Position numbers and translations under genes: made by a program. A DNA stretch of 64,000 nt from NCBI GenBank assembly GCA_025934735.1, contig JAICWP010000006.1:186001-250000 (forward strand), in the 5' to 3' direction. The notes beneath the pieces were generated by a model. It was not told the origin of the DNA. It did not search any database and saw only the letters and a program-made list of their open reading frames with translations. Below are positions 15,491 to 17,727 of this stretch, in pieces; position 1 is the first letter of the stretch; every line of letters begins with the position of its first letter. The DNA is from Terriglobales bacterium (lineage in GTDB: Bacteria > Acidobacteriota > Terriglobia > Terriglobales > Acidobacteriaceae).

Positions 15491-15508
15491 GCCACGAAGT
15501 GTGGCTTT
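15491..15508 (+). repeat. Outer direct repeat of the island, left copy (18 bp)
   Basis: GCCACGAAGTGTGGCTTT occurs here and again exactly at 18488-18505. The first 15 bases form a hairpin (GCCAC-gaagt-GTGGC). Confidence 0.8.
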
Positions 15509-15846: not shown

Positions 15847-15982
15847 CAGACGTGACCTCATGGCCGCACTTAGTGCAGCGATAAATGCCGGAATACGGGG
15901 TGTTGGTTGAGGGATGGTAACCCTGGTCGTAGGCGGATTTATTGGCATGAGTTAAGAACTGAGCGTATTTGTATTCGGCCAT
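15743..15982 (-). CDS. Small zinc-ribbon protein downstream of the transposase
   Basis: This 79-residue protein has one CxxC pair (YRCTKCGHEV) followed by GYPLPPQNHHQHTPAQG and WQLIVAHGW. The LPPQNHHQH block is typical of a small, widespread family of uncharacterised zinc-ribbon-like proteins. Here the second metal pair would have to come from the histidines. Its start codon lies inside the end of the transposase gene (31-bp overlap), so the two are probably co-transcribed. It ends in TAA. Confidence 0.65.
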   Translation of the reverse strand: MAEYKYAQFLTHANKSAYDQGYHPSTNTPYSGIYRCTKCGHEVTSVTGYPLPPQNHHQHTPAQGAIVWQLIVAHGWIQG

Positions 15983-17211
15983 GCGAGCACCCCGTTTGGT
16001 GGCTTTCCCCGGAACACCGGGTCAATGCCGAGTTCGTACATCTCGTGGATGAGGACAACTAGATTGTGGCAGAGAATCTTGCACAGGGTTTCATTGACCA
16101 TCGCAACATCCGTCTTACTGCGGAGAGAGTCGCCGAATTTCCGCTTAATCATACTAAAAGTAGATTCGATATTGGAACGCTTGTGGTAATGCTCAAGAAA
16201 TTCTTCGCGCCTATACATGAAATAGTGGAACATCTGCCCAAATGTTCCACCTACGCCACCCGTAGCGTTCCCACGAAAAGAGATGAACGGAGTACCGCCG
16301 AATTTGTGAACAATGTCTGTGCTGATATTGCCGCCGTATGCCTTATCCGCGGATACCTCGGAAATACTGAAATTCTTGGCAGTCGCTTCTATCAAAGCCG
16401 GGAACTGGCGCACGTCGCTAGCGCGCTTGTCGGCAATCTCTACGGCGGTAACGATGTTAGTTTTCACGCCGCACATCACATGGCACTTGACCCACTCCCG
16501 CTGTTCCTTGTCCTTGCCATACTTCACGTCAAACCAGCGTGCAAAGCGAGTGGTCATAAATCCCGAAGAATCTACGGCGAAGTCAGTCTCAATCGCACGC
16601 AGTGGCAGGCTGCTGGTCGTAATCAGGTCGCGCAGCAGCGGCGTCATTTCAGGATTTTCAAGGTAATTGAAAATCGAGTTGTAGTGCGGAGCCTTGGCGA
16701 TAAAACCCTTTGCTTGGGCATCGCGCAAGTCGGTCATAAAACGACGAGCGCTAACCGTGGAGTAAACCTTGAATGTCACGCTGAAGATGGCATCGGACAG
16801 GGGAAGATTGGGACGCCCTGCGCGTTTAACTTGTGGCTGGTCAATGGTACGGCACAAATCGGCCAGCAGGAATTGGAACCTGTCTTTTTCGTTCGTCTGA
16901 GCGGAATTGTAAGCGGGCCACACCTGCGGATAGGTGGGGCGGCTGCTGGCAATAGCGACCGCTTCCGTAACCGTAGTGCTTCCGTCCTCGTTTTCTTCCC
17001 GCCGCATCACAAAAATTGCCGCATAGATGTGCTTGCATTTCTGGCGGTGCGTTTCCCAATCAGGGCAAGAGCAACTCGGCTGGTTTCCCTCAATGTGGCT
17101 GACCATGTAGAAGCCGTGCCCGGTTTGGGAAGGTACCTTCCATCGTTCCCCGTAACGTGTGATTCTGGCGGTGGCTGCGAGTACGATGCCGCGCTGCTCT
17201 CTCAGGTCCAT
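15952..17211 (-). CDS. SWIM zinc finger-DDE transposase
   Basis: This 419-residue protein has an N-terminal SWIM-type zinc finger (C47, C49, C59, H61 in a CxCP...CxH pattern) joined to a DDE transposase. The catalytic triad is probably D214 (AVDSSGF), D289 (ADKAYGG) and E349 (NIESTFSMIKRKFG). The E block matches the IS4/IS5/IS1182-like RNase-H-fold DDE domain. A good ribosome-binding site (GTGAGG) and a near-consensus promoter precede ATG 17211. The gene ends in TAA. The intact catalytic triad suggests it is, or recently was, active. I did not find unambiguous terminal inverted repeats for a simple insertion sequence. Confidence 0.85.
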   Translation of the reverse strand: MDLREQRGIVLAATARITRYGERWKVPSQTGHGFYMVSHIEGNQPSCSCPDWETHRQKCKHIYAAIFVMRREENEDGSTTVTEAVAIASSRPTYPQVWPAYNSAQTNEKDRFQFLLADLCRTIDQPQVKRAGRPNLPLSDAIFSVTFKVYSTVSARRFMTDLRDAQAKGFIAKAPHYNSIFNYLENPEMTPLLRDLITTSSLPLRAIETDFAVDSSGFMTTRFARWFDVKYGKDKEQREWVKCHVMCGVKTNIVTAVEIADKRASDVRQFPALIEATAKNFSISEVSADKAYGGNISTDIVHKFGGTPFISFRGNATGGVGGTFGQMFHYFMYRREEFLEHYHKRSNIESTFSMIKRKFGDSLRSKTDVAMVNETLCKILCHNLVVLIHEMYELGIDPVFRGKPPNGVLAWPNTNTLSS

Positions 17212-17235
17212 AGCTACCTCACTTACCTGAGAAAT

Positions 17236-17264
17236 ATATTACTAACCAGGGATATATCTGTCAA
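17236..17264 (-). promoter_or_regulatory. Near-consensus promoter of the transposase gene
   Basis: Read on the minus strand, TTGACA (17259-17264) and TAATAT (17236-17241) are separated by 17 bp. The predicted start site is near 17229, about 18 bases before ATG 17211. The -35 box is half of a perfect dyad shared with the divergent promoter. Confidence 0.75.
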
Positions 17265-17281
17265 GGAAAATCTACTTGACA
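17259..17281. promoter_or_regulatory. Dyad covering both divergent -35 boxes (candidate operator)
   Basis: TGTCAAG (17259-17265) and CTTGACA (17275-17281) form a perfect 7-bp inverted repeat with a 9-bp spacer. Each arm contains one -35 hexamer. A 12-bp direct repeat AATATATTACTA also flanks it (17233-17244 and 17281-17292). One protein dimer bound here could silence both directions. Confidence 0.5.
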
Positions 17282-17303
17282 ATATATTACTATCGTGTAT
17301 ATT
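17276..17303 (+). promoter_or_regulatory. Near-consensus promoter giving a probable leaderless transcript
   Basis: TTGACA (17276-17281) and TATATT (17298-17303) are separated by 16 bp. The expected transcription start, about seven bases after the -10 box, falls on the ATG at 17310. Confidence 0.7.
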
Positions 17304-17309
17304 AGTTGT

Positions 17310-17468
17310 ATGGGCATGGTTACACTCCACAAAAAGGGGTATAAATGTAACCGCTGCTCCCATGAGTGGGAGCCTCGTAAGGCTACGCAGGGCGAACCGC
17401 GAGTGTGCCCGAAGTGCAAAAGCCCATACTGGAACAAACCACGCAAGAATAAGCGCCCTGCGTCATAG
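17310..17468 (+). CDS. 52-residue zinc-ribbon protein, probably leaderless
   Basis: This is a short gene encoding MGMVTLHKKGYKCNRCSHEW, an Arg/Lys linker, VCPKCKSPYW and a basic tail ending KRPAS. Two CxxC pairs (C13/C16 and C33/C36) form a rubredoxin-like zinc ribbon. Comparable tiny proteins with a YKC-x2-C...CPKCKSPYW pattern are common in environmental bacteria and have no known function. There is no Shine-Dalgarno sequence, because the promoter -10 box ends only six bases upstream of the ATG. An internal ATG at 17316 is an alternative. It ends at TAG and converges on the tRNA pair. Confidence 0.75.
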   Translation: MGMVTLHKKGYKCNRCSHEWEPRKATQGEPRVCPKCKSPYWNKPRKNKRPAS

Positions 17469-17486
17469 TGCTCTTTGTAAAGAGTT

Positions 17487-17574
17487 TGGCGGAGAGACAG
17501 GGAGTCGAACCCCCGGTGCGTACACACCGGCCAGAGCTTTGCAGGCTCCTAGCTGCCAGCAGCGATGCCTCTCC
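17487..17574 (-). tRNA. Non-canonical 9/3 tRNA (allo-tRNA), anticodon GCA, serine-type identity elements
   Basis: The 88-nt gene includes an encoded CCA (17487-17489). The acceptor stem pairs 9 bp (17566-17574 with 17491-17499, one G-U). The D stem has 4 bp with a 4-nt loop CTGG. The anticodon stem has 5 bp with loop CTGCAAA, anticodon GCA at 17540-17542. A long variable arm has a 6-bp stem (17525-17530 with 17513-17518). The T stem is only 3 bp (17500-17502 with 17510-17512) around loop TTCGACT. The discriminator is G73. Canonical tRNAs have a 7/5 branch; 8/4 and 9/3 tRNAs have been described in Acidobacteria as possible suppressors. Long variable arm plus G73 suggests charging by SerRS, which ignores the anticodon. 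CysRS normally needs U73. It would then insert serine at UGC/UGU. Confidence 0.85.
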
Positions 17575-17582
17575 GATCAAAA

Positions 17583-17662
17583 TGGTCGCCCCAGCCGGAT
17601 TTCGATACCGGCATCTCCGGTTTTAAAGACCGGCGTCCTAGGCGCAGTTAGACGATGGGGCG
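17583..17662 (-). tRNA. Atypical tRNA with anticodon UUA (reads stop codon UAA)
   Basis: This is a 77-nt tRNA plus encoded CCA (17583-17585), with A73. The acceptor stem has 7 bp (CGCCCCA/TGGGGCG). The D arm GTCT...GGAC resembles that of glutamate tRNAs. The anticodon stem is a perfect 5 bp around CTTTAAA, so positions 34-36 are TTA (17624-17626). The variable loop is short. The T arm (17594-17612) has a perfect 5-bp GCCGG/CCGGC stem, but the loop is 9 nt, TATCGAAAT, instead of 7. The D loop lacks the GG pair that normally docks on the T loop. UUA is the complement of UAA, so if charged it would be an ochre suppressor. The amino acid cannot be assigned. It lies 8 bases upstream of the second tRNA, on the same strand. 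Confidence 0.8.
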
Positions 17663-17670
17663 GTCATGGT

Positions 17671-17713
17671 GCAGGTGGGGAAGGCGCTCTGCAAACGTTT
17701 ATTCCCCACCTGC
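17671..17713. repeat. Perfect 12-bp inverted repeat before the tRNA pair
   Basis: GCAGGTGGGGAA (17671-17682) pairs perfectly with TTCCCCACCTGC (17702-17713). The 19-nt loop contains the palindrome AAACGTTT. It lies between the winged-helix gene and the first tRNA. There is no T run, so it may be a processing or attenuation hairpin or a recombination site rather than a simple terminator. Confidence 0.75.
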
Positions 17714-17727
17714 CACGCAAGTTCACA

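Follow-up and report, generated by a model that had tools for sequence, protein, structure and literature searches.

What does a transposon do with tRNA genes whose anticodons are foreign to their bodies? The question is raised by a locus in a 64,000-nt stretch of contig JAICWP010000006.1 (positions 186,001 to 250,000 of the forward strand; hereafter the window) from the Terriglobales bacterium assembly GCA_025934735.1, in which a pair of tRNA-like genes lies upstream of a transposase gene. One of them combines a cysteine anticodon with a serine-type body and a 9/3 division of the acceptor branch (9-bp acceptor stem, 3-bp T stem) in place of the ordinary 7/5. We consider, with a probability of roughly 55%, that the tRNA pair is optional informational-suppressor cargo of an IS5-like (SWIM-DDE) transposon. 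The gene at the center of this reading is:

17487 to 17574, minus strand: 9/3 tRNA of 88 nt with anticodon GCA (Cys codons) and a Ser-type body, recognized from its sequence, ARAGORN, covariation, and comparison with host tRNASer and tRNACys genes.

The RNA reads GGAGAGGCA-UC-GCUG-CUGG-CAGC-UA-GGAGC-CUGCAAA-GCUCU-GG-CCGGUGU-GUAC-GCACCGG-GGG-UUCGACU-CCC-UGUCUCUCC-G-CCA. The 9-bp acceptor stem includes one G-U pair, the 3-bp T stem closes a 7-nt T loop, and the D stem has 4 bp. The 4-nt D loop, the long variable arm (7 bp), G73, the encoded CCA, and the anticodon GCA are all as first noted in the preliminary description of this DNA. In the window, ARAGORN found just one tRNA, which it called tRNA-Cys(gca), at 17487‒17574 on the minus strand. 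The Rfam tRNA model (RF00005) did not call the gene, and the tRNA-Sec model gave 43.6 bits, under its cut-off of 47. A 7/5 reading fits more poorly, since its T stem would contain both a G-G mismatch and a G-U pair. The minimum free energy structure from RNAfold, a check suggested at the outset for the 88-nt RNA, contains the 9-bp acceptor (−40.2 kcal/mol). Since the folding energy is weak evidence, with a z-score of only −1.6, the 9/3 fold was tested by comparison.

Seven 9/3 genes were aligned to a model built from the window gene and the gene of a related locus, L099. Paired cells make up 98.5% of this alignment, which is biased to the structure by being fitted to its own model, but the defining pairs still vary with compensation (pair 8, UA, CG, and UG; pair 9, AU, CG, and GC). 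Double-sided changes were found in 15 of the 28 pairs, compared with 8.6 in shuffled alignments, and none of 500 shuffles reached this value. The covariation score was 0.53, against 0.25 after shuffling and 0.06‒0.15 with the partner slid. A 4-bp D stem with a 4-nt loop is present in all five aligned transposon-type 9/3 genes. The 9/3 fold is held by selection for pairing, and the 12-bp branch previously read from one sequence is confirmed across the seven relatives.

Which amino acid would such a tRNA receive? The seryl-tRNA synthetase (SerRS) does not read the anticodon. The acceptor pairs G1-C72, G2-C71, and A3-U70 and the discriminator G73 are those of the host tRNASer genes, the first six acceptor pairs are identical to the host Ser set, and pairs 1‒3 with G73 are invariant across the seven 9/3 relatives. 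The tRNASer genes recovered from the host and six other Acidobacterial genomes start with GGAG, carry G73, and have pairs 1‒3 in common with the 9/3 tRNA. The host tRNACys differs, with GGCGCGG and U73 against GGAGAGG and G73. The host genome has 42 Rfam tRNA matches and two ordinary tRNACys genes with U73, and no second copy of the 9/3 tRNA was found in it. The serine-type identity proposed earlier is well supported by these sequence elements, and the best inference is that the 9/3 tRNA would be charged with serine and read UGC/UGU as missense.

A 9/3 acceptor branch of 12 bp, SerRS elements (long variable arm, G73, and Ser-like acceptor), a non-serine anticodon, and an Acidobacterial setting are also the features of allo-tRNAs. 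The likeness to these, drawn in the preliminary description, is right, but the anticodons listed for 9/3 allo-tRNAs in a review of the 8/4 and 9/3 tRNAs of Mukai et al. 2017 are Arg, Leu, and ochre, so that GCA lies outside them (PMC7609411). The window tRNA further differs from allo-tRNAs in its defined place in a SWIM-DDE transposon and its tandem with a Glu-like ochre tRNA. In other phyla, the same slot is occupied by bodies of Leu-, His-, Cys-, and Arg-like type, and in archaea it also holds tRNAs. A long tRNASec-like D stem has been described for 9/3 species (PMC7590224); it is not the defining trait.

The resemblance to bacterial tRNASec (RF01852), with which the 9/3 tRNAs score 35‒46 bits and have the long variable arm, 4-nt D loop, and G73 in common, raises a further possibility, in which SelA converts Ser-tRNA(GCA) and selenocysteine enters at Cys codons. 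The host has a true tRNASec and selA, and selenocysteine incorporation is possible with engineered 9/3 allo-tRNAs (PMC7590224). However, the acceptor branch has 12 rather than 13 bp, the D stem is shorter at 4 bp, the score is under the family cut-off, the anticodon is GCA instead of UCA, and the host tRNASec is a separate gene. Selenocysteine recoding would also leave the UAA, GUC, and Leu- or His-body relatives described below unexplained, and we regard it as very unlikely. Separately, the host genome contains a degenerate second tRNASec-like sequence (C8:90264‒90361, L069), in which the 3′ half duplicates the true tRNASec (C8:60465) and the 5′ half is replaced.

What accompanies the 9/3 tRNA? 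The surrounding features are:

17583 to 17662, minus strand: tRNA-like gene with anticodon UUA (ochre), RF00005 45.8 bits.
17671 to 17713, minus strand: GC-rich hairpin, GCAGGTGGGG...CCCCACCTGC, directly upstream of the tRNAs, fold z-score −3.8.
17295 to 17468, plus strand: small zinc-ribbon open reading frame (ORF), listed at 57 aa, with the start probably close to 17310‒17316.
17236 to 17303, both strands: back-to-back promoter-like sites, from a consensus scan only.
15952 to 17211, minus strand: IS5-like transposase of 419 aa with a SWIM zinc finger and DDE_Tnp_1 (Pfam, NCBIfam).
16019 to 17721, no strand: conserved block in common with the closest relative (blastn), the approximate core of the mobile unit.

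The transposase lies 276 nt downstream of the 9/3 tRNA and matches DDE_Tnp_1 (1.7e-17) and SWIM (2.7e-06) in Pfam; its best NCBIfam family is IS5_2, at 103.5 bits under the cut-off of 140. The zinc-ribbon ORF is convergent with the tRNAs and divergent from the transposase, and it is kept in many relatives, including loci without tRNAs. One promoter-like site (plus strand, 17276‒17303, 11/12) faces this ORF and the other (minus strand, 17264‒17236, 10/12) faces the transposase. Hairpins like that of the window are present at L095, L096, L097, L093, and L099. The closest relative, L095 (Acidobacteriaceae bacterium SbA1, 82% identity over the best segment), has the same tandem, composed of a C1-G72/A73 tRNA (UGC) and a 9/3 GCA tRNA. 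Homology between the window and L095 runs from the hairpin through both tRNAs to the transposase and ends upstream at the hairpin. The hairpin, tRNAs, zinc-ribbon ORF, and transposase are one conserved block. The earlier placement of the tRNA in a transposase island is correct as to the nearby transposase, but the island is a single transposase, and the pairing recurs across the transposase family. Terminal inverted repeats, element ends, and target duplications of the window element were searched for and not found.

Could the transposon merely insert beside host tRNA genes, as many mobile elements do? This is rejected, since the homology with L095 crosses both tRNAs and stops at the hairpin; the Acidobacterial tRNAs moreover differ from host isoacceptors, and no second 9/3 copy exists in the host genome. 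We consider such targeting extremely unlikely.

The 9/3 tRNA sequences of the window and L095 have diverged by about 25%, yet both loops and the CCA are kept. This retention, the covariation described above, and the recurrence of the same mismatch combinations make it improbable that the genes are functionless relics, namely transposon-captured tRNA copies in decay, even though the distribution is patchy, some members, L138 and L148 among them, are degenerate, and a remnant in G100 has no transposase.

The second tRNA sits 8 nt upstream of the 9/3 GCA tRNA and is part of the same cassette. Its anticodon loop, CUUUAAA, corresponds to codon UAA, and it is among the Rfam tRNA matches of the host genome. 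It has C1-G72, A73, an encoded CCA, and an irregular 9-nt T loop. Its D arm resembles that of host tRNA-Glu(ttc), which is also the nearest host tRNA, at a low score. The C1-G72/A73 combination has been described as archaeal-type TyrRS identity (PMC7590224) and is also found in host tRNAPro. In L095, the counterpart in the same place has the anticodon UGC.

Is the pairing peculiar to this branch? Scans for related transposases gave 80 loci in the genome collection and 23 in the viral collection, and none was found in the plasmid and phage collections. We searched with the general tRNA model (E ≤ 0.01) and defined the slot as 100‒650 nt upstream of the transposase, for which 96 loci have sufficient sequence. 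The slot holds 23 matches in 20 of these loci, every one on the transposase strand. From the 13 tRNA matches elsewhere, 0.38 would be predicted in the upstream strip, although the Poisson significance of this difference is overstated because the viral contigs L183 and L184 are almost identical and loci related by descent do not count as independent. On the transposase tree (n = 95), where the tRNA label covers slightly more than the 20 loci by including weak or ARAGORN-only cases such as L148 and L149, the second copy of L121, and the window, 15 label changes are required, no fewer than 13 of them on well-supported branches. The label is clustered, with none of 500 shuffles as low. A single slot has thus repeatedly acquired or lost tRNAs.

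The bodies in this slot vary. Ser-type bodies carry GCA in the window, L095, L096 (9/3), and L097 (7/5), UAA in L099 (9/3), and GUC in L093. The homologous transposases of G005 (63% identical) and G028 (59%) have Ser-body tRNAs with very long variable arms just upstream, with anticodons GCA (Cys) and GUC (Asp). L178 is Ser-type with the anticodon UAG and C33, and the archaeal L171 is probably Ser-type with GCA. Leu-type bodies with A73 are found in L105 (GUC) and L160 (GGA), and His-type bodies with G-1:C73 in L100 and L153 (CGU); L099 adds a His-like tRNA (AGU) with C73, in which G-1 is not encoded. LeuRS and, largely, HisRS depend weakly on the anticodon. A Cys-type tRNA with U73 and an 8-nt anticodon loop in L183/L184 (4788‒4862) is read by ARAGORN as having a four-base anticodon. 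L143 (143‒217) has a similar gene, with U73 and an 8-nt loop, farther upstream, and L127 (1920‒1992) has a tRNA-like gene with an 8-nt anticodon loop near a related transposase. In their loops, these genes resemble +1 frameshift suppressors, and the adjoining transposase ORFs are unbroken.

Isotype was assigned by the nearest host tRNA, which recovered 26 of 33 in a leave-one-out test and is weak outside Acidobacteria, with 2 of 6 ordinary control tRNAs of other organisms typed correctly; L121 was left out of these controls because it is itself upstream of a second transposase copy. Identities outside Acidobacteria therefore rest on the discriminator, G-1:C73, and the variable arm. Judged from such sequence features, the anticodon is foreign to the body wherever the body can be typed. 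A separate remnant in G100 (L213, about 4385‒4650, minus strand) holds a hairpin, a tRNA (ACU), a 9/3 UAA tRNA, and a zinc-ribbon fragment, with no transposase nearby.

What, then, would the tRNAs do? In the suppressor-cargo mechanism, the 9/3 tRNA would be processed, and the host SerRS, which is blind to the anticodon, would load it with serine. EF-Tu would bring Ser-tRNA(GCA) to the ribosome, placing serine at some UGC/UGU codons, and the neighboring UUA tRNA may decode UAA. On this reading, informational suppressors would travel with the element as optional cargo, and its transposase does not depend on them. In support of such decoding, E. coli cells with either of two allo-tRNAs (one 8/4 and one 9/3) incorporate Ser in sfGFP (PMC7609411). 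A requirement for the tRNA in decoding the transposase is rejected, since at loci with a tRNA the transposase ORFs are free of frameshifts and premature stops. No convincing Ser-, Leu-, or His-for-X substitution was found at conserved columns of the transposases of these loci. With the transposases intact and no convincing substitution for the tRNA to repair, the tRNAs would act on something else, at a low level, or as RNA.

The last of these corresponds to an explanation in which the tRNA-like genes are mainly RNA structures: cleavage of read-through transcripts by RNase P/Z would insulate the transposase against external promoters, or a tRNA-like RNA would regulate transposition. The constant position and strand, the hairpin upstream in many elements, the location of the promoter-like site of the transposase downstream of the tRNAs, and the irregular T or anticodon loops of some members are consistent with it. 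On the other hand, a mere cleavage device needs no foreign anticodon, intact 7-nt anticodon loop, encoded CCA, or tRNASer-like acceptor end, and GCA recurs on differing Ser bodies. We consider a structural role rather unlikely and prefer optional mobile suppressor cargo.

Several points weigh against the suppressor-cargo interpretation. About four-fifths of the related transposase loci have no such tRNA, which makes it dispensable. The eight Cys codons of the window transposase, all UGC, are open to misreading by the GCA tRNA, and Cys-to-Ser misreading should damage the cysteines that bind zinc in the transposase and zinc ribbon encoded by the element itself. Several upstream tRNAs have irregular T loops. 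The synthetases of E. coli did not charge irregular allo-tRNAs of soil origin (PMC7609411). The nev-tRNAs of nematodes, which also have a long-variable-arm body and accept Leu in vitro although their anticodons are foreign, are matured, but their mistranslation was undetectable in vivo; these are nuclear genes for which transposon cargo is not reported (PMC4300185).

How far does the association extend? A transposon lineage of bacteria and archaea may repeatedly have gained mismatched tRNAs (missense, nonsense, and four-base/frameshift) in a fixed slot, as mobile suppressors that alter host decoding or regulate the element through controlled mistranslation; we hold this broader proposal tentatively, at somewhat less than even odds. 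Mismatched tRNAs in related bacterial and archaeal elements suggest that mobile DNA spreads code-misreading genes. Allo-tRNAs are already known and a transposon link has been suspected, while the specific, widespread, and diverse transposase-tRNA association appears new. The literature searched, which covered few subscription papers, gave nothing specific on transposon-borne suppressor tRNAs, and no mention was found there of the defined SWIM-DDE slot, a 9/3 tRNA with GCA, its pairing with an ochre tRNA, or this range of bodies. Placing allo-tRNAs in a particular slot of a transposon, alongside Ser-, Leu-, and His-type bodies with foreign anticodons and other members with enlarged anticodon loops, makes their purpose testable. 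Mobile elements may move suppressor tRNAs between genomes as a route to codon ambiguity, and the slot is a natural source of varied non-canonical tRNA scaffolds for genetic-code engineering.

G433 and G267 have 9/3 allo-tRNAs with the loop CUUAUAA (UAU) in the neighborhood of IS1595-type transposases, and the window's own genome has a less regular UAU-type tRNA near such a transposase (L211, about 4948‒5035; C43:88947‒89034). The tRNA-transposon association thus extends beyond one family, in agreement with the reported allo-tRNA(UAU) pseudogene of Edaphobacter that overlaps a transposon-related ORF (PMC7609411). Soil transcriptomes are reported to contain polycistrons of irregular tRNAs (PMC7609411).

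Some minor observations concern the surroundings of these genes. Direct repeats flank the window element at 15491‒15569 and 18438‒18505 (GCCACGAAGTGTGGCTTT, TTGGGCAGGAG), about 2.9‒3.0 kb apart, and the flanking hairpin-like repeat recurs in L095 near 6258. A 149-aa ORF without a Pfam match (17728‒18177, minus strand) ends just upstream of the hairpin, and the corresponding place in G005 holds a small ORF of another kind. At L211, an Abi_2-like ORF is located just upstream of the UAU-type tRNA, and L211, L214, and L215 all have allo-tRNA(UAU)-like genes with IS1595-type transposases within a few kb.
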